Of a DNA stretch of 62,629 bases, positions 5,543 through 53,129 are shown in pieces (positions within the stretch are counted from its first letter, which is position 1; each line of letters begins with the position of its first letter). Under the pieces are notes generated by a model. That model had not been told where the DNA came from and made no database searches. It saw nothing but the letters and a program-made list of their open reading frames with translations. Location of the stretch: positions 1 to 62,629 of the IMG/VR virus record IMGVR_UViG_3300042691_021403; one strand, given 5' to 3'. The stretch is from a virus. A program made the position numbers and the translations under genes.

Positions 5543-8500
5543 TTAAACACCTGATGGTAGTGCTAGAACACGAAGATCATGTACGATTGGTGTTTTGGTT
5601 GTGTCTGAAGTTGCCAAAACAATCTTGATCGCAAACTGACTAAATGTGGTAAATGTTGAACCGTCAGTGCTTGTGTAAGAAATTTGATTGTCCGCTTGAC
5701 CGCCAGTACCAGGTGCGGCAACATACTCTCTAAGATCATCTCTACTCAATGAGAAAGAGTTTGGTGATTCACCAACATTTGTCATCAGTACCCAGTTTTG
5801 GTCATTCAGATTTGCAGTATCATTATTATTTAGAATTTTATAATAAACATATACCTGTGAACCTAATGGTTTGTATGCTGTGTAATAAACTCTTAAGTCG
5901 CCAGATATATTTTCTGGAGACAATACAACAGGCTTAGTTATGTATCTTGCAAGTCCATTACCACCCTTAGCTGATGTTTCACCTGAAACTACTGCTGTTG
6001 CGCTAACAGTTCCGTTAGAAGCAATCGTAATTGTTGGTGTTTGGATATAACCAGAACCTGGAGTTGTAATATTAATCTTGTCAACATAAAAACCAGTTGT
6101 TGCAGGATTATACACCAAGTTTGCAGTAGCATATGCTTGTGAACCACCAGATGCTGTTGGTGCGGAGATTGTAACTGTTGGTGGTGTTGAAGAATAGTTT
6201 GCTGTCACACCAACAGTGTTACCGGATGTCACATTAATATCTGTATTAGCCAACGACATGTTGTTAATCGAATACTTGATAACATATACAGAAGTTCCAT
6301 CATCTGCTATAACCGGAGAAACATATTTGTCTGTTGTAGCCATAGATGCTGCCAATACAAAAGAGGTGGCCGAATTGGAATCAATAACTCTTGAACCTTT
6401 TCCATCATCCAAATAGATATGGTCGGGCATTGTTGTAGCGTATCTGCCTGGTTGCACATCCCTAGTTGAGTCAATGGAATAATCTGAATATAGTTTTGGT
6501 GTATAAGTATATGATAGTGATGTTCCTGTTGGTGTAAAATCTGTAACAGTTACGTTGAAAGCATCTGCACGAACATCTCTACCAAAATAATTACCGTCCA
6601 AGTTTGTAAGATTGTTTGCGTTGTTTGCAAAATATTCTAAATCGGAGTTAACCAACTTTCTCATTGGTACCTGTTTTGGTACAATGTATTGAACTGTTGG
6701 TGCTGCCAAAGTATTGAACACACAGTTATCAATAACAAACATCATTTGTTTTGTTTGGTCGGCAGACCAAGTAATACCGTTTTGAGACTCGAACAACGAA
6801 CCAATATAAGGTGTTCCACCAATTTTTGTTAGTGTTGTTGGTGTAGCATCTGTTGGAAGGTTTTTAACTGAAGAAGGAACAGCAATTGCATTCTGTGCGG
6901 CAACCCAAATTTCATAATCAGGTGTTGTTGTTTGAAGCACGAAAGCATACAAATTACCAGACCTAATATACACTGGAGCATCAAATGTAAATTCTGTGTA
7001 TGATGCTGGATCCAGATATTGTGGTGTGCTTGATACATTAATTTGTTGTGCAGTTTTCACCACCAATGTACCATCAATTGCTTGACCATCAGGATAGCCA
7101 TTCACCGTATCTGTGATAAACATTTTTACTGCTGGTGAATTTGTTGCAGTTGGTTTTGTTTTAAAGTAAACCTTAATTGATTTAATAAATGCACCATTTG
7201 GATATGTTGATTTATCGATAATAAAGGTTTGTGCAACAGGGTCAACAGTATATGAGAATTGATTAATCAAAACGTTGTCACGATTTTGTATTGAAGTAAA
7301 CACAGTGGACTTAGCGGCCGCTTGCACTGTTGCACCAAAATTCAGAGATTGGCTTTTTGTTGCAAGTGAAGAAGCGGTAAAAATGCCTTGTGCAAATGTT
7401 GTAGCAGAATCTGGATCAAAGTCGGTTGACCTATTATCAACTCTTAATAGTCTATCACCCGTTTTGAATGTATTGGCAGGTACTTCAAAAATACCAGAGA
7501 AGTTACCTTGTTCATCAGTAGATAGTACGGGAACTTTAGCTGAACTTCCCGCCTGTGAAATAAGGAATGTTGTTCCTGTAATCGAATAGCCAGAATTAAT
7601 TCTACTTCTTACGGAAGGTTGGCCATAAACTGTTCCATTTGTACCTATAGAAACATTTACTGGATTACCAAGTGTTGCTACCTTTGTTGTTCCATTGTAT
7701 GCAGTAATTGTGGCAGTGTAATATTCATTTTTATTTTCCCATGAAAATACGTCACCATAAAGGTCTTCCAACCAAAAACCCCATTCCCAATCACCAACCC
7801 ATTGTTGACCAATTACAGCTTTGGTGGCTGTCTGCCTTTGATTCCCGGTTGTAATTTTGATTGTTGAACCAACATAAAAATCTGTCACTGATGACGCCGC
7901 CGGTCCTAGAGTGAGTGATGTTACACCTGAATAGTAGAAACCACCACCTGGAAGGGTTGATAATGTTCCTGATGACGCTTGAAGTTCACCACTTAAACTA
8001 ACTTGTGTAGATGTTGCGTTAGAATAGGTACCAGACGCTGTAAACCCACTGTATACACCTGTTTGGTCAAATGTTGCATTCTGCAACGTTGCTGTGGTAC
8101 TGTACGTGGAGGTTTTTTTGTCGGAAGTGAGATACAATCTGACAGAAGTTGAACTTAGTTTTGTTACAGAAACCACACGTGCGGTTGGAGTAAATGTTCC
8201 TGCCGTGAAGAAACCTACAACATCACCATCATTAAATGTTCCAGTAACGTTTGTTAATGTCACTGAATTTGGTTGAATGAAATAATCATTTACTTTTTGA
8301 TTATCAAAGAACACGGAAACAGGAGTATTAATCTTCATGCCTTTGGCACGAACGATTAAGTTTTGACCACGAATGTATGGTAACAAAGTCACATCGGTTA
8401 AATAAGTTCCATTCAAGGAAGAAACTTTGTCATAATTTCCAGAAATTGTTTGTCGTGCTTGACTTTGATAAGTGCTTACTGTAACAGTTCTACCGGATGC

Positions 8501-34448: not shown

Positions 34449-35330
34449 TTATTCTTCGGCTAGCTTAGAGAAATAAGCCAAATCATCATCATCTTCAGCA
34501 ATACCGGCATCCGCCATCACTGGCGCAGGCTTACGTGGCATTGCTTTAGCTTGTTCAACTGTAGTCTTTGCGGCTACTGGTGAACCATCAAGGCCGAGAA
34601 CTTTATCAAGGCGTGCCTTCAACTCATCATAAGACTTGAAGTTTTCTGGTGCAAGGAACTCTTTGAGGGAGTATTCTTTCTTCCAGATTGCTTCTAGCTT
34701 CTCATCGTCATCCAACAATGCGGATGGAGATTCGAATTCAGACTTATCATAGTTCTGATAGCCCTCAACTTTACGAATCTTGAGTTTGAAGTTTGCACCA
34801 GCCCACATATCAAAAGGATTAATTGGCTTTTCATCCTCAAAAGCAGGATTCATTGCTTCGTTAATCTTATCAAAGATTTTTTTTCCGAACTTGTAAAGGA
34901 AAACTTTACCTTCGTTCTGAGGATTCTTAGAATCTTCAACAACGTAGATGTTAGCCATGTAAGACAGGCGGCGCTTTTGCTTACGTGCAACTTCCTTGTT
35001 TGCTTCGATGCCAGAGTTCCACAACTGAGAGTTGTATTCAGAAACTGGATCTTTCTGACCAAGAGTGGTCAGTGAGTTTTCGATGTACCAGCCACCAGGT
35101 CCCTGGAAGCCGTGATTGAAAACTTTCACCCATGGTAGGGCGTCATCACCATCAACGGAAGGTTGAGGAAGAAAACGAATAACTGCATAACCGTTACCAG
35201 CCTTATCGACTTCGGGTTTCCAGAAATTATCTTCTTTGGTTGGGGATTCGGTCGTATTGAGTTGCTCAATAGCCTTTGCGAGTTTGTCCAGGTTGCTGGA
35301 GTTACGCTTGAGATTTGCGAATGAAGACAT
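34449..35330 (-). CDS. 32: Single-stranded DNA-binding protein gp32
   Basis: 293 residues (T4 gp32 has 301). The OB-fold core is clear: NFWKPEVDKAGNGYAVIRFL near 35, GGWYIENSLTTLGQKDPVSE, then QNEGKVFLYKFGKKIFDKI near 140, and NPFDMWAGANFKLKIRKVEG. The C-terminus is acidic (EDDDDLAYFSKLAEE) as needed for partner binding. The T4 zinc ligands (three Cys and one His) are absent in the equivalent region, as in several marine T4-like phages. It coats ssDNA in replication and recombination. Ribosome site AAGGAA; a terminator follows the gene. Confidence 0.95.
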   Translation of the reverse strand: MSSFANLKRNSSNLDKLAKAIEQLNTTESPTKEDNFWKPEVDKAGNGYAVIRFLPQPSVDGDDALPWVKVFNHGFQGPGGWYIENSLTTLGQKDPVSEYNSQLWNSGIEANKEVARKQKRRLSYMANIYVVEDSKNPQNEGKVFLYKFGKKIFDKINEAMNPAFEDEKPINPFDMWAGANFKLKIRKVEGYQNYDKSEFESPSALLDDDEKLEAIWKKEYSLKEFLAPENFKSYDELKARLDKVLGLDGSPVAAKTTVEQAKAMPRKPAPVMADAGIAEDDDDLAYFSKLAEE

Positions 35331-35413: not shown

Positions 35414-35896
35414 TCAAAGATACATCTTCAGCATTGCGATAGTAGAAACGGCATCTGTGTGAAGTATGCCAATACCACCGGCTTTGTTCCAATCATCGAT
35501 AACGGATTTAGTGTCATCGATAATGATGGAATCTGGAGTAGCATACTTGTATTTCAGGGATTTACCTGGAACAAAGTTTGCTTTGTAGTGAATGTTGTGC
35601 TTGTTCAACCACATTTGTTTTTGTGGTGCAATCATTCCGTGATTTTCAGGTCGTGCAGTTGACGAAAGGATTTCTTTAGGTACATCAAAACTGTTCAAGT
35701 AACTCAGGAGTTCAAGTGCATCAGGCATGAGGTCAAGTGTACTGAATTCACCATCTTCAATGAACTTTTTGAAGAACCCATTAAATTCTTTATTGCTTCG
35801 TGTTTCCTCTGGTGTCGCACGGAACTTTTCCTTGTAACGTTTAGAGAAATCTGCAATCACGCCATCCATATCAACGTAAACGGTTTGTATTTTCAT
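35414..35896 (-). CDS. HAD-superfamily 5'(3')-nucleotidase
   Basis: 160 residues. The HAD signature DMDGVIADF is at 9-17 (two catalytic Asp), the Ser in SSTARPENHG gives the second motif, and SIIIDDTKSVIDDW the fourth. The arrangement resembles the NT5C 5'(3')-deoxyribonucleotidases common in phages, which dephosphorylate nucleotides during host DNA turnover. It sits in the gp32-gp59 cluster, and its start overlaps the stop of the upstream gp59 gene. Confidence 0.82.
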   Translation of the reverse strand: MKIQTVYVDMDGVIADFSKRYKEKFRATPEETRSNKEFNGFFKKFIEDGEFSTLDLMPDALELLSYLNSFDVPKEILSSTARPENHGMIAPQKQMWLNKHNIHYKANFVPGKSLKYKYATPDSIIIDDTKSVIDDWNKAGGIGILHTDAVSTIAMLKMYL

Positions 35897-36501
35897 GTTG
35901 TAGTCAGATTTAAGTTTTTCTTAAGTATTGCAAGCATCTTGGGTTTATCAAAGTTTAAGAATGGTTTATACTTCTCACAACTCTTGACGAATTCTGGAAA
36001 GATAATGTCATCATCAACTTTTTTAACCCACATGGGCAAGAAGTTTAATAACTCATTTAAGATAATTAAAGTCTCTTTAGCACACATATCTTGCATATAA
36101 AGATTATACAACAACGGGTACTGTTTGTCAACCACCCTGAGCAATTCTTCCGGATTGTTTACCGAATCGAATAGCCTGTGGAGGTCTTGTTCAAAAACAT
36201 AGGAGAGGGACTGTTGGGTTTTTTGCCACACCTTGTATTCGGACTCCGCATCCTCGGACAGAAGGTCACCCACCCATATTTTTGGATTCACTAGCATATT
36301 GGCAACAAAAAAACCAAAGAGTTCATCACGCTTGTATTTTCTGGACAGTTTATAGAATTGAAACTTGTCCTTACGGAGCATGAATTGGTCTTTGGTTACA
36401 TTTGTTTTGCCAGAATACTTCACATAATCATACTTTGAAGTGAAATGTAGTTTCAATGCATGAAACAGAGCATACGCTTCAAAACCACCGGCTTCACTCA
36501 T
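35893..36501 (-). CDS. 59: Helicase loader gp59
   Basis: 202 residues (T4 gp59 has 217). The N-terminal motif GFEAYALFHALKLHFTSKYD with Y and K residues that contact forked DNA, followed by KRDELFGFFVANMLVNP, fits the gp59 family, which loads the gp41 helicase onto gp32-coated forks. Gene order gp33-gp59-gp32 (in transcription direction) is as in T4. Starts and stops overlap by 4 bp with gp33. Confidence 0.85.
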   Translation of the reverse strand: MSEAGGFEAYALFHALKLHFTSKYDYVKYSGKTNVTKDQFMLRKDKFQFYKLSRKYKRDELFGFFVANMLVNPKIWVGDLLSEDAESEYKVWQKTQQSLSYVFEQDLHRLFDSVNNPEELLRVVDKQYPLLYNLYMQDMCAKETLIILNELLNFLPMWVKKVDDDIIFPEFVKSCEKYKPFLNFDKPKMLAILKKNLNLTTT

Positions 36502-36719
36502 AATGGCAACTTATTCACTTTCTTAATCATATTTGCGGCTTGTGCTTCATCAGAAATTTTGGCTTTGATTGGTGCAGTGAGAAGTGTTGCGGCAATCTCT
36601 ACTTCAAAACCAGTTTCTTCACAGTGTAGAATAATAGCATCCATATAGGGTATTCTTTTCTTTTGCACAATTTCTTCAATAATGGCTGAGAACTTTCGTT
36701 GTTCTTCCTTAGTGGCCAT
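36498..36719 (-). CDS. 33: Late transcription coactivator gp33-like
   Basis: 73 residues, shorter than T4 gp33 (112). The core YMDAIILHCEETGFEVEIAA, then KAKISDEAQAAN and the terminal LPL fit the gp33 family, which binds the RNA polymerase flap and the sliding clamp to activate TATAAATA promoters. Position next to gp59 supports it. The four exact late boxes noted elsewhere in this window agree with the presence of this system. Confidence 0.78.
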   Translation of the reverse strand: MATKEEQRKFSAIIEEIVQKKRIPYMDAIILHCEETGFEVEIAATLLTAPIKAKISDEAQAANMIKKVNKLPL

Positions 36720-36934
36720 TATTTCTTACCCATTGAATAAGCAATGCAAACAGCATTCGTGGCAGTTTCATACGCACACTTAACGGAGATTGGATCGATA
36801 CCTTTTTGGATAGCTGATTCAATATTCTTTGCCATGTTGTTACGATCATTGATGTTGTAAATTGTAAATGCGGCGATAGATGAACACACTGCAAGTGTGA
36901 TACAAACAATAACCGTGATAACTTCTTTTTGCAT
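36719..36934 (-). CDS. Small single-span membrane protein
   Basis: 71 residues from the ATG at 36934. An ATG 22 codons upstream is in frame, but the chosen one has AAAGGAG at the right distance and lies 1 bp after the upstream stop. It has one N-terminal transmembrane helix (VITVIVCITLAVCSSIAAF) and an exported tail with cysteines at the end. Following a cell-wall hydrolase, it could be a holin- or spanin-type lysis factor, but no class was recognised. Confidence 0.72.
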   Translation of the reverse strand: MQKEVITVIVCITLAVCSSIAAFTIYNINDRNNMAKNIESAIQKGIDPISVKCAYETATNAVCIAYSMGKK

Positions 36935-36935
36935 T

Positions 36936-37490
36936 TTAGATGACTCCTTTGTTTCTGTCAATTTCGTCTTTGTTGCTTCTGTAGAAGATGTGTCTGCCAA
37001 TTTGGTCTACCTTTTTTAATTTCCATTGTGGATTAACATAGTCTGCATGGTAATATGTTGCACCGTTTGTTACATCGGTTTGATGTTCAAAGTTGATGAC
37101 CATATTAATTGCTAACTGACGAATCTCATTATACAACGAGGTGCCTCGAATTGTCAACTGTTTATCGGTACTTTTCTTCTCACAATACCAAGAGAATTGA
37201 CATACACCACCGGTTTTCTGATACACTACTCCGCAAATGTCATTCGCATAATTACCTGTTCTGAGCCTATTAAATGTAACGAAAGCAACGGCTTTCTTGC
37301 CATCGAGTGGCTCATTTGCGGCTTCAAAATAGATATTATCAGCTAGGCAAGTTATTTGTTTCTGTGTCTCCTTATCTAAGGAATGAAAACTTGCCTTGAA
37401 TGGTAAATTATATAAATCTATATTTACCATTGACAGTGATATGATGACTGCGGAAAATAGTATGCTTAAAAGTATTGGTTTACTTTGCAT
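36936..37490 (-). CDS. SleB-family cell-wall hydrolase (probable endolysin)
   Basis: 184 residues. N-terminal hydrophobic helix (PILLSILFSAVIISLSMV) can serve as a signal or signal anchor. Residues 45-180 match Hydrolase_2 (SleB): LADNIYFEAANEP, KKAVAFVTFNRLRTG and GATYYHADYVNPQWK. The Glu of NIYFEAA is the expected catalytic acid of this lysozyme-like fold. The export signal favours a secreted or membrane-anchored endolysin rather than a cytoplasmic one. Ribosome site AGGA; it lies 28 bp downstream of the end of the tmRNA and may share its transcript. Confidence 0.85.
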   Translation of the reverse strand: MQSKPILLSILFSAVIISLSMVNIDLYNLPFKASFHSLDKETQKQITCLADNIYFEAANEPLDGKKAVAFVTFNRLRTGNYANDICGVVYQKTGGVCQFSWYCEKKSTDKQLTIRGTSLYNEIRQLAINMVINFEHQTDVTNGATYYHADYVNPQWKLKKVDQIGRHIFYRSNKDEIDRNKGVI

Positions 37491-37517
37491 TTTTATTTCC
37501 TATGTGTTGAACATGGT

Positions 37518-37807
37518 GGTTGGTTATTCTGTTACGAGGAAACCAACCGAAACCCTAGTCAGCGTTTAGGCTGCCAATGCGAACTTTTCATCGTTTGCGT
37601 TTACTTTGATTTACTTTTAACGACTCTCTGTGTCGAGTTGTCCACTTCTGTACTTGTTGCCCTGTCGAAACCTGGTCATCCCCATCAAAAACACACCCCA
37701 TTACAGCCCTCAGAGGTTTCTTTCATGTAAGACATGTGTTTTTGGTGGAGATGGGCGGAATCGAACCGCCGTCCAGAACACTTTTCTAGTTGCTTCATAC
37801 AACCATA
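37518..37807 (-). ncRNA. ssrA: Circularly permuted (two-piece) tmRNA
   Basis: The minus strand first encodes the acceptor piece (about 37807-37743): T-arm GGCGG/CCGCC with loop UUCGAUU and a 3' end CAUCUCC-A-CCA. Then comes a 59-base intervening segment, and then the coding piece from 37683: GGGGAUGACCAGGUUUCGAC, the standard tmRNA 5' end. GGGGAUG pairs fully with CAUCUCC and includes a G3.U70 pair, the alanine identity element. The tag frame is 37598-37566. A 9-bp helix AAAACACA/UGUGUUUU closes the intervening loop. An 8-bp perfect hairpin (37541-37548 with 37518-37525) marks the 3' end. tmRNA rescues stalled ribosomes. Confidence 0.93.
37566..37598 (-). other. tmRNA proteolysis-tag reading frame
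   Basis: Starts at the resume codon GCA (37598-37596) after AAAGTAAAC and encodes ANDEKFALAA followed by TAA. With the alanine carried by the tRNA-like part, the peptide is AANDEKFALAA. The ALAA end is the classic ClpXP/Tsp-type degradation signal; the tag resembles betaproteobacterial tags such as AANDERFALAA. Confidence 0.95.
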
Positions 37808-37813
37808 GCCTCT

Positions 37814-37842
37814 ATTATAGAGGTTTTTTATTTAGGTGTCAA
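37814..37842 (-). promoter_or_regulatory. Consensus sigma70 promoter of the tmRNA
   Basis: TTGACA (37842-37837), exactly 17 bp, TATAAT (37819-37814), predicted start about 37807. This perfectly matches the start of the acceptor piece. It is the best host-type promoter in the window. Confidence 0.92.
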
Positions 37843-37868: not shown

Positions 37869-38522
37869 TTATGATTTTGGTTTAATACATTCCACACAGA
37901 GTGATTCAACTGCTCTTAGTGGATCATCGAAACGTAATTTGTCGTTCTGGTGTAAATCATAGTTTCCATCAGCATAGCTTGTTCTTCGAACATTTTCAAA
38001 TCCAATCGAACTGAGAAGCCAGAGAAGTGTTTCAAAATCATATGTAGCTTTATGGTCGTGGTCATGCATGGCTGAGTTGAACAAAGAACCGCTTGTTCTC
38101 ATCAAATGGGCCTTTTCTCTGAATCCTTCCATCTTCATGTAGGTTTCGAAAAAATGCATCTTTTTTGTTTTATATGCATCAATCCAGAACTCTAAATCTG
38201 GAACAATCAGTCTCATTTTTCCTCCAGGTTTTAATGCTCTGAAACATTCCTGTAGTATGAATAGGCCGTCCAGATAACTAACATGTTCTAAGAAGTGTGA
38301 CTGATATATTCCCTCTAAAGAGTTGTCTGCGGCAGGAATGTCTTTAGTTAAATCGAAATTTAGATAGAACTTTCCGCTAGGCAGTTGAACAAAATCTTCA
38401 TGTGGTCCATTAGGTTGAAAATCAATATTCAAGTATGGTTCATCTTTATCGTCCGGACCTGAACCAAGATTGTAGTGAGAAAAACGGTCCGAATATTTTT
38501 TATATTTTATTGCATTAGTCAT
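37869..38522 (-). CDS. Class I SAM-dependent methyltransferase
   Basis: 217 residues. The Rossmann motifs are recognisable: HYNLGSGPDDKDEP near 16 (motif I region), IDFQPNG, then SHFLEHVSYLDGLFIL and LKPGGKMRLIVPDLE near 93-110. The family includes glycan, lipid and small-molecule methyltransferases; the substrate cannot be told. It ends the oxygenase cluster that begins at the 40.5-kb late promoter and is separated from the next gene by 1 bp, so it is probably co-expressed. Confidence 0.8.
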   Translation of the reverse strand: MTNAIKYKKYSDRFSHYNLGSGPDDKDEPYLNIDFQPNGPHEDFVQLPSGKFYLNFDLTKDIPAADNSLEGIYQSHFLEHVSYLDGLFILQECFRALKPGGKMRLIVPDLEFWIDAYKTKKMHFFETYMKMEGFREKAHLMRTSGSLFNSAMHDHDHKATYDFETLLWLLSSIGFENVRRTSYADGNYDLHQNDKLRFDDPLRAVESLCVECIKPKS

Positions 38523-38523
38523 A

Positions 38524-39189
38524 TCAATACTGTAGTGCTGTCATATATTTAAATTCAGTTAGGTTTGTGATATCACCATAACCACCAACAGGCATGAGAT
38601 TAAATGCTAAACTATAACGGGACTTGTTCGTATCATTCTTCGGAACAAAGTGCGGTAGATGAGATGGAAATATGATGAGCCTACCTTTAGATGCAGGTAC
38701 AGCAAAATGATAGATAGAAAAATCATTTTGTATTTTATGATTCTTTTTTGGAATCATCTGAAACATTGCAGAAGTACCTGCATTTTTTTCGAATATTAAT
38801 GCCGAATTTTCATCATATTCATCGTCAAAATACAACACACCTGAAATAAAACTATTCGGATGCACATGTGTTTTGTGTTCTTGTGAGTTAGTCTTGTTGT
38901 TGACCCACGATAACACATCAACCAAACCTTCAACTTCAAAACCCATAACTTCTGTTGCAAATTTTTTGGCATTTATCAGAATGTTATTTCTAATTGACGA
39001 AAGTTTTTCTAAACGAAGCACTTGCTTATTCTCGGTATTTTCACCCCATATATCGCATACCTTTTCTCCACTTGGGAGTAGTTCTTCCACTCTATTTGTT
39101 TTTAATGAATACAATTCATCCTGAATTTCTTTGGTGATCTCCAGGTTTTGTATAAAAATTGGTGTTGGGAAAATAGGAATAACATTCAT
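38524..39189 (-). CDS. 2-oxoglutarate/Fe(II) oxygenase (2OG-FeII_Oxy_5 type)
   Basis: 221 residues. Motifs of the TIGR02466/PF13759 family: HKTHVHPNSFISGVLYFDDE near 107-126 with the first His pair, LIIFPSHLPHFVPKN near 180 with the distal His, and RYSLAFNLMP with the Arg that binds 2-oxoglutarate. Such enzymes hydroxylate proteins, sugars or small molecules. Next to a close paralog and upstream of a methyltransferase; overlapping start/stop with the paralog. Substrate unknown. Confidence 0.85.
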   Translation of the reverse strand: MNVIPIFPTPIFIQNLEITKEIQDELYSLKTNRVEELLPSGEKVCDIWGENTENKQVLRLEKLSSIRNNILINAKKFATEVMGFEVEGLVDVLSWVNNKTNSQEHKTHVHPNSFISGVLYFDDEYDENSALIFEKNAGTSAMFQMIPKKNHKIQNDFSIYHFAVPASKGRLIIFPSHLPHFVPKNDTNKSRYSLAFNLMPVGGYGDITNLTEFKYMTALQY

Positions 39190-39884
39190 TATAAAACATC
39201 CCTATAATTAAATTGAGTAAGTTCTTCTGCTGAACCTAGACCATCTTTTGTTAGCAAATTAAATGCAAGGCTATATCTGTTAAAGGGTGTGGTGTTTAAA
39301 TCAACTTGATGCACCAAAGTGGCCGGAAATAACACCAAAGTTCCCTTGGAAACTTTAACAGTGGCGACTCGCCTAGTACTGAAAGGTGCTTCAGCAATTC
39401 CTGATATACATTCTGGAGGTAAATATTTCGGACGTAAAATAAATTCACTCTCTGAATCTGGATGCATTTTATTCGAAAAATGTAGCGGCATATTTTCCGT
39501 GTGTTCATCGAAAAAATATACTCCCGAAATTATACTGTTTGGATGACTATGTGGCATGTGTTGATTATTCGGACGTTTTACTGTCACCCATGATAGCACA
39601 TCTATCATTTCATTGGTGTCGATACCCAATAAATCACGTGCAAATTCTTTTCCGGCGTATAGAATTTTTTTCCTCAAATCTTTACAAATGTCATCACGCA
39701 AAATCATAACATTTGTGGATACTGCACCATAACCAGCAGGTTCTGTTCCTATAGGATGATTTAGTTCCGTATTCGTTAGATAATTTTGTAATTCATTCGA
39801 TGGTTGATATTCGCCAATTGCAATAGGTTTAGCTAACACGGGATGCACTATTAAATTCAACATTTCATCATTATTTTCACTCAT
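39189..39884 (-). CDS. 2-oxoglutarate/Fe(II) oxygenase, paralog
   Basis: 231 residues from the ATG at 39884, chosen because the GGAG inside an upstream ATGGAG gives correct spacing to it. Motifs: HMPHSHPNSIISGVYFFDE near 110-130, LVLFPATLVHQVDLN near 195, and RYSLAFNLLTK. It is similar to the neighbouring gene in all metal-ligand regions, so a tandem duplication is likely; the central region differs, which suggests different substrates. Confidence 0.83.
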   Translation of the reverse strand: MSENNDEMLNLIVHPVLAKPIAIGEYQPSNELQNYLTNTELNHPIGTEPAGYGAVSTNVMILRDDICKDLRKKILYAGKEFARDLLGIDTNEMIDVLSWVTVKRPNNQHMPHSHPNSIISGVYFFDEHTENMPLHFSNKMHPDSESEFILRPKYLPPECISGIAEAPFSTRRVATVKVSKGTLVLFPATLVHQVDLNTTPFNRYSLAFNLLTKDGLGSAEELTQFNYRDVL

Positions 39885-39902
39885 CATTTTCTCCATTTAA
39901 AA

Positions 39903-40466
39903 TTAAAAAGCCCAAGTAACAAATGACCATCTCTCACCTTTGGTCACAGTTTCAACTCTATGTCGATACATAAAAGCTGAGGGAAAAATTAGAACATCTC
40001 CCTTTTTCATGTTTATTTTCAAATCATCAAACATTATAAATTCACCGCCTTCATAATCATCATTTAGACAACCAACAATAGATAGTAGAGGACTGCCAGA
40101 ACCTTTTTCGAAAATACTCACAATATTATCACTGTGTTCCGACATACTTGTTCCTGTCACATATCTATTTATTCTGAATTCAGATGTGTGTCTTAACTGG
40201 ATATGAACGGGATGGCGATTCATATAGGAATTTATCCATTCAATACATTTTTTTGCCAGATAGTCGAGATGTTCACCTTCAAATACCAAATTCAAAAGTT
40301 CCTTATCCCTTCTCGTTGAAATATTCATTGTTTTATTTGGATCATAACTTGTCCATGCATGTTCAATCCAGTCATCTCTTACGGAGTATTTTTTGATGGC
40401 ACTGTCGCAAAATTCTTCAGGTAATACACCCTTCATCAAATGAATATATTCATAAAGTTGTTTCAT
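39903..40466 (-). CDS. Prolyl 4-hydroxylase-like 2OG/Fe(II) oxygenase
   Basis: 187 residues, a different 2OG subfamily: MSEHSDNI (HxD metal ligands) near residue 112, DDYEGGEFIMFDD near 135-147, YRHRVETVTKGERWSFVTW at the end (distal His and the Arg/Lys binding 2-oxoglutarate). The pattern fits the P4H/PKHD fold seen in many cyanophages. First gene of the leftward cluster, behind a perfect late promoter (40499-40506). Ribosome site GAGGAA. Substrate unknown. Confidence 0.85.
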   Translation of the reverse strand: MKQLYEYIHLMKGVLPEEFCDSAIKKYSVRDDWIEHAWTSYDPNKTMNISTRRDKELLNLVFEGEHLDYLAKKCIEWINSYMNRHPVHIQLRHTSEFRINRYVTGTSMSEHSDNIVSIFEKGSGSPLLSIVGCLNDDYEGGEFIMFDDLKINMKKGDVLIFPSAFMYRHRVETVTKGERWSFVTWAF

Positions 40467-52316: not shown

Positions 52317-53129
52317 TTATTTACCTACGTTTACGTTAGGATTCGCACCAATCACAAGAGTGTTGCCTTTGAATGATGCAATACCTTGAGCCTGAATCTT
52401 AGCGGCTTCTGCAAGTGTCATACGAGTTTGAGCATCCATGTATTGAATAGCGCCAGCGTTTGAGTTCAAAGCGGCAATACGTTCAGCTTCTTTCTTGGCA
52501 GTTTCAACTTCAACAGTCTTTTGCTTGAATTCATTCTTTGCACGAACCAAATCATTGGCAGATGCAACAACAGAATCAGCCGGCACAACATTACGAATCA
52601 TAACTTGGCTGATAGTGATTGAACCGTCCAGTTTTTCTTCTGAAAGGTTACGGACGATTTCGTCCTTGATAAAGTTCTCCATGTCAGAACGGGCGTCTGC
52701 CATGTCCAAGGCCTCATACTTACGTGCGGCTTTGTAGATAGCATTACGGGCATTTTGCACCACATAGTTGTACATCACATATGTATCACCTTTAAACTCA
52801 GCGTGAAAACTCTTGTTCTTTGTGGAGTACAATTCAGCAACAGTTTGCGGATTGATGTTGTAAACAACTACAGCATCAAAGTCTTTCATTGTAGAATTAT
52901 CTTTTGCAACGGGTGTCATATTCTCCAATACAACGTTCACATCCTTAATTGGGAACGTAAGCACAGTACCAACCAATGTTTGGTTGAAAGAACCTGGAAG
53001 CAATTCACCAGATTGTACCTGTTTATCAAAGCCAACACGAACACCAACTTCACCAGTTTCAATACGAGTACAAGCGGCAGTCATTGCAACAGCGGCGGCG
53101 ATAACAGAAATTTTCAGAAAGCGAGACAT
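52317..53129 (-). CDS. SPFH/prohibitin-family lipoprotein
   Basis: 270 residues. Lipobox MTAAC at 16-20 predicts lipidation of Cys20 and membrane attachment outside the cytoplasm. Residues 22-200 are an SPFH/Band7 domain (VGVRVGFDKQVQSGELLPGS, then FDAVVVYNINPQTVAELY); residues 205-255 are a charged helix (KQKTVEVETAKKEAERIAAL) typical of prohibitins. Band7 proteins cluster membrane proteases such as FtsH; phage versions may change host protein quality control. Ends one base before the small gene downstream. Confidence 0.85.
   Translation of the reverse strand: MSRFLKISVIAAAVAMTAACTRIETGEVGVRVGFDKQVQSGELLPGSFNQTLVGTVLTFPIKDVNVVLENMTPVAKDNSTMKDFDAVVVYNINPQTVAELYSTKNKSFHAEFKGDTYVMYNYVVQNARNAIYKAARKYEALDMADARSDMENFIKDEIVRNLSEEKLDGSITISQVMIRNVVPADSVVASANDLVRAKNEFKQKTVEVETAKKEAERIAALNSNAGAIQYMDAQTRMTLAEAAKIQAQGIASFKGNTLVIGANPNVNVGK

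Follow-up and report, generated by a model that had tools for sequence, protein, structure and literature searches.

The tmRNAs of mycobacteriophages Bxz1, Wildcat and others and of Bacillus phage G are, as far as is known, of the one-piece form. Like the gene described here they are phage-borne ssrA genes, but they come from unrelated hosts (PMC4131195). Two-piece (permuted) phage tmRNAs were described in 2022, when they accounted for 53 of 133 phage tmRNA structures, mostly aquatic, together with that of Methylophilales phage Melnitz (MZ577097; PMC9004378), and the current database holds 79 bacteriophage sequences in the tmRNA family (PMC11915505). We report an intact betaproteobacterial-type (beta-type) two-piece tmRNA in a T4-like phage. 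The gene lies on a 62,629-base virus record, analysed in full and referred to as the window, which has structural and replication genes of T4-like type. Two-piece tmRNA genes had been found in aquatic phages before; what this analysis adds is inheritance, since the tmRNA is a regular, vertically inherited gene of one T4-like phage lineage.

Melnitz is likewise T4-like, and its permuted ssrA precedes gp33 and gp59. Its RNA groups with the alphaproteobacterial type (a label given to the bacterial genomes from their tags and from how the phylum was sampled), with the tag ANDNYVPVDYALAA and a 142-nt spacer, whereas the window has a beta-type RNA, the tag ANDEKFALAA and a spacer of 59 nt. Melnitz was published with a glutamine riboswitch (PMC9004378); in the window none reached the Rfam cut-off. 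Synechococcus phage BUCT-ZZ01 (ON615601) shares with the window a permuted beta-type tmRNA on the same viral branch and is the closest coding-piece match in the public phage collection, at 75% identity across a portion of that piece. It differs in its tag (ANDETFSMALAA), its spacer of 111 nt and its neighbours, which are annotated just as hypothetical proteins. The BUCT-ZZ01 tmRNA (L002:3774-4174) is unannotated, and its beta type is odd since the listed host is a cyanobacterium. With the betaproteobacterial two-piece tmRNA (RF01850, RF04321) the window gene has in common a full-length match, the piece order, the core helices and an ANDxxFALAA-type tag; the former is bacterial, whereas the latter is found on a phage.

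Structure of the tmRNA gene

An initial annotation, made from the letters of the window, had placed a complete two-piece tmRNA on the minus strand at 37518-37807 and proposed a check against the Rfam two-piece models. Two Rfam models matched in a covariance search: beta_tmRNA (RF01850) at 37856-37508 (minus strand), scoring 152.7 bits where the cut-off is 84 (E 5.4e-47) and covering model positions 1-331 of 331 and thus its full length, and tmRNA_permuted (RF04321) at 37804-37566 (minus strand) with 135.2 bits (E 2.3e-26). ARAGORN independently called a permuted tmRNA with the tag ANDEKFALAA*. The location therefore stood, but the extent was slightly short in view of the beta_tmRNA match and of a predicted promoter at 37842-37814. 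The parts are as follows.

37814..37842, minus strand: predicted sigma-70 promoter upstream of the tmRNA, TTGACA-17-TATAAT, 12/12 consensus matches
37743..37811, minus strand: acceptor piece, comprising a 5' extension pairing with the coding piece, T-arm, acceptor 3' strand and CCA (Rfam and ARAGORN; approximate 5' limit)
37684..37742, minus strand: intervening segment of 59 nt, which should be absent from the mature RNA, with a hairpin beside the acceptor stem
37508..37683, minus strand: coding (5') piece, comprising the GGGGAUG acceptor 5' strand, resume site, tag ORF and 3' helix (Rfam, ARAGORN; approximate 3' limit)
37566..37598, minus strand: tag frame GCA AAC GAT GAA AAG TTC GCA TTG GCA GCC TAA, ANDEKFALAA* (ARAGORN and sequence)

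The acceptor piece precedes the coding piece, and the acceptor stem pairs across the spacer at 7/7 positions (G-C, G-C, G-U, G-C, A-U, U-A, G-C). The alanine identity pair G3.U70 and the CCA end are both present, as read from the sequence only. With the encoded CCA ending at 37743 and the 5' piece beginning at 37683 with GGGGAUGACCAGG, the spacer between them (37742-37684) measures exactly 59 nt; the tag reading frame contains the resume codon GCA and a stop. ARAGORN and the sequence thereby bear out the CCA, the spacer length, the start of the 5' piece and the tag given in the initial annotation, as well as its exact 7-bp acceptor stem with G3.U70. Folding of 37811-37508 gives z = -2.8 relative to shuffles. 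A chance match or pseudogene was ruled out by the full model match, the intact tag and the covariation reported below.

In several respects the gene departs from its bacterial counterparts. The terminator-like 3' hairpin of the beta_tmRNA model is deleted in the window's alignment to that model, so the 3' end must arise another way; this hairpin is terminal and belongs to neither the tRNA-like nor the tag parts, and we do not consider it a defining feature. The window encodes the full CCA, whereas six of 12 genes from the order Burkholderiales, as called by ARAGORN, read CACC with no encoded A. Acceptor pairing below 7/7 in some bacterial genes reflects ARAGORN's placement of the acceptor-piece end and not broken stems. 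The spacer of 59 nt compares with 25-43 nt in 11 betaproteobacteria. A viral set picked by tag, with no length limit in the pattern, has a median spacer of 84.5 nt, while the pattern of the first viral scan itself demanded 42-72 nt. The spacer hairpin of the window (-14.6 kcal/mol, 14 closing-end pairs versus 3.6 in shuffles) was considered as a phage novelty and rejected: betaproteobacterial spacers fold end to end too (11.6 pairs versus 5.8 shuffled), so that only spacer length differs.

Genomic setting and transcription

The tmRNA sits among gp32, gp59, gp33, baseplate and tail genes, and this phage surrounding agrees with its earlier attribution to a phage genome. The genes downstream of it, all on its strand, are a SleB-type hydrolase, a 93-aa ORF, gp33, gp59, a nucleotidase and gp32, of which the following are used below.

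36936..37490, minus strand: SleB-type cell wall hydrolase (Pfam Hydrolase_2, 78.1 bits)
36498..36719, minus strand: gp33 late-transcription coactivator (Pfam Trans_coact, 62.1 bits; phrog_254)
35893..36501, minus strand: gp59 helicase loader (phrog_269; Pfam T4_Gp59 N and C)
34449..35330, minus strand: gp32 single-strand DNA binding protein, the lineage marker for the survey (phrog_224, 396 bits)

The hydrolase gene is the next one downstream, starting 18 bases past the end of the tmRNA model, and has a relative in Melnitz (34%). The nearest relatives of gp32 are in cyanophages and marine T4-like phages (about 61%).

Among 183 viral relatives, 26% have a sigma-70 match of at least 11/12 upstream of the tmRNA, in most cases at a single fixed position; the figure for shuffles is 0%. 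No minus-strand terminator was found between the tmRNA and the SleB gene, so transcripts may continue into the hydrolase gene. A T4-type late promoter (TATAAATA) for the tmRNA operon was rejected, the window having five sites against 4.5 expected, none of them near the tmRNA. Three 12/12 sigma-70 matches lie on the same strand within 1.8 kb, before the tmRNA (37814-37842), inside the hydrolase gene (37128-37157) and inside gp59 (36103-36131, all minus strand).

Distribution and conservation in related phages

A phage carrying a permuted tmRNA had been described as rare in the initial annotation. That view is not upheld, since such genes were published earlier (PMC9004378) and a single strict permuted-tmRNA signature finds at least 120 stretches in IMG/VR; in the IMG/VR scan at least 120 viral stretches also match the ANDEKFALAA tag pattern. 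Because both scans select on the tmRNA itself, loci were also chosen by gp32 alone, and these were surveyed with ARAGORN and Rfam since the recall of a regular-expression search for permuted genes was only 84% (155/185).

Among 32 gp32-picked loci with at least 6 kb upstream, 23 carry a permuted tmRNA (18 by ARAGORN and five more by Rfam), although the inclusion of near-copies (e.g. L384/L386, L402/L403 and L419/L420) means fewer independent cases. The examination of related phage contigs that had been recommended earlier thus gave a positive result. In the others, nothing rose above the cut-off. The tmRNA is present in 16/16 loci whose gp32 is at least 71% identical and in 7/16 below that value, and in the carriers it lies upstream of gp32 on the same strand. 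When loci are picked by tmRNA, a SleB relative is found within 4 kb in 148/187 and a gp33 relative in 116/187. The slot is kept across relatives, with the tmRNA upstream of the SleB hydrolase, gp33, gp59 and gp32 in conserved order and strand, even where neighbouring proteins share just 40-60% identity. L384 and L386 have permuted tmRNAs of long span (351 nt, 5947-6297) that were matched by RF04321, missed by ARAGORN and below the cut-off for the alpha and beta models.

Covariation was assessed in 103 non-redundant viral sequences, under about 90% alike, whose helices show many compensatory changes. The acceptor stem is 100% paired and the T-stem 99.8% paired with compensatory changes, but both ARAGORN and the pattern of the first scan are biased towards a paired acceptor, and ARAGORN towards a paired T-stem also, so the 7/7 acceptor is partly selected. 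The better evidence comes from the inter-piece P2 outer helix (95.3% paired versus 80.5% shuffled) and the 3' helix (86.6% versus 64.3%); P2a is 98.7% paired versus 87.9%. As the sequences are related and the shuffles ignore kinship, the significance of these contrasts is overstated. The two-piece tmRNA is accordingly a retained, covarying gene of a lineage and no curiosity of a single isolate, from which it follows that the phage probably gains from supplying its own ribosome-rescue RNA. The many viral sequences, some of them missed by ARAGORN, could extend the bacteriophage listing of the tmRNA family (PMC11915505).

Phylogeny and origin

A tree of 144 permuted tmRNAs (165 columns, short search) has many weakly placed branches. 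The viral and most betaproteobacterial tmRNAs fall on one side (SH-aLRT 99), versus those of alphaproteobacterial type, and the window falls in a set of 37 rows, all viral (SH-aLRT 95), inside the beta-type group. Melnitz is on the alphaproteobacterial-type side on a long branch; since it has the other type at a comparable position, one type may well have replaced another there. Two genes from the order Burkholderiales (L251 and L252) are placed inside the mainly viral group. L252 adjoins chromosomal genes, namely an apparent ubiG and a phosphoglycolate-phosphatase-like gene by our reading of the translations. The simplest reading of these sequences would be that the phage lineage acquired the gene from a betaproteobacterium and has inherited it since, and the beta type suggests that the host is a betaproteobacterium.

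Might the gene instead be a passenger, a host ssrA recently captured by chance, for example through imprecise excision, and not a maintained phage gene? Its betaproteobacterial type and an acceptor stem identical to that of L251 would fit such an event, and ssrA is a prophage integration site, fragments of which occur in prophages (PMC9004378). A recent passenger is hard to reconcile with a slot shared by relatives whose neighbouring genes have diverged so far, with the presence of the tmRNA in all 16 nearer relatives, or with helices that covary among the viral copies. Chance capture is already disfavoured by these results, and we regard it as highly unlikely.

Tag sequences and proposed function

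In 107 viral loci picked by signature, 49 different tags were found, with ANDEKFALAA in 10 of the 107 loci; all 107 tags end in AA and 94 in LAA. The tag thus varies across these phages while its protease-facing end is mostly fixed. Two tags were called with a VA ending, ANDSRFLMVA (L393:4020-4357) and ANDNSFRQVA (L429:6823-7218), and their degradation might be altered.

A phage tag unlike that of the host might divert tagged proteins, by protecting them or directing them to another protease, or might let amino acids from host proteins be recycled; recycling was proposed for Melnitz (PMC9004378). The ANDEKFALAA pattern, searched in codon-degenerate form with the first codons and the TAA stop fixed, occurs in only five bacteria among 84,980 bacterial and archaeal genomes, all five with a one-piece tmRNA, against the much larger number of viral matches given above. 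However, the phage tags vary widely while mostly keeping their AND...LAA ends, and a single substitution separates ANDEKFALAA from ANDERFALAA, a tag common in hosts. Retagging is on balance very unlikely.

A gene for SmpB, the candidate phage-encoded partner, was found neither in the window nor in 19 related or reference phage records, most of 125-190 kb, so host SmpB would be needed. The earlier proposal that the tmRNA replaces or reprograms host rescue is not indicated, the tag being LAA-ended like host tags and no SmpB being encoded. Dependence on host SmpB would also suit a decoy that competes for this protein or for alanine and so inhibits host trans-translation. Mycobacteriophage DS6A has a tag-less tRNA-like RNA that was proposed as such an inhibitor, and a DS6A-like RNA inhibits tmRNA in E. 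coli (PMC11915505; PMC4131195). Unlike DS6A, the window retains a resume site and a full LAA-ended tag, and none of the 107 signature-picked viral copies has lost the AA ending, which makes a decoy highly improbable.

We consider it very probable that the locus is a complete, probably functional beta-type two-piece tmRNA, inherited vertically by a T4-like phage lineage and acting by the steps of trans-translation. Ordinary trans-translation during infection is its most likely function. Host RNA polymerase would transcribe the tmRNA from its own predicted sigma-70 promoter. By analogy with known two-piece tmRNAs, host tRNA-processing enzymes would then excise the 59-nt spacer hairpin to leave two base-paired RNAs. 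The product would be charged with alanine via G3.U70, bind host SmpB and carry out trans-translation on ribosomes stalled in infection, adding the LAA-ended ANDEKFALAA for host ClpXP-type proteases. The most likely benefit is that ribosomes are kept free while host and phage mRNAs are broken. Perhaps the lineage even holds a virus-specific branch of permuted tmRNAs, near-universal in one T4-like clade, at a constant position next to the lysis and late-transcription genes and distinguished by its own tags and longer spacers. Phages of this clade would then always supply a rescue RNA tuned to infection; this broader proposal is tentative, and we lean somewhat against it.

Other genes of the window

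The 93-aa ORF at 36719-37000 (minus strand) overlaps the hydrolase gene, contains a hydrophobic segment and has a relative in 89/187 loci. It has no Pfam or PHROG match, and its position suggests a spanin or holin. Upstream of the tmRNA, at 37869-40466 (minus strand), are three consecutive 2OG-Fe(II) oxygenase-like genes and a methyltransferase-like gene. The phage also encodes an SPFH/Band 7 protein at 52317-53129 (minus strand; Pfam Band_7, 58.5 bits).
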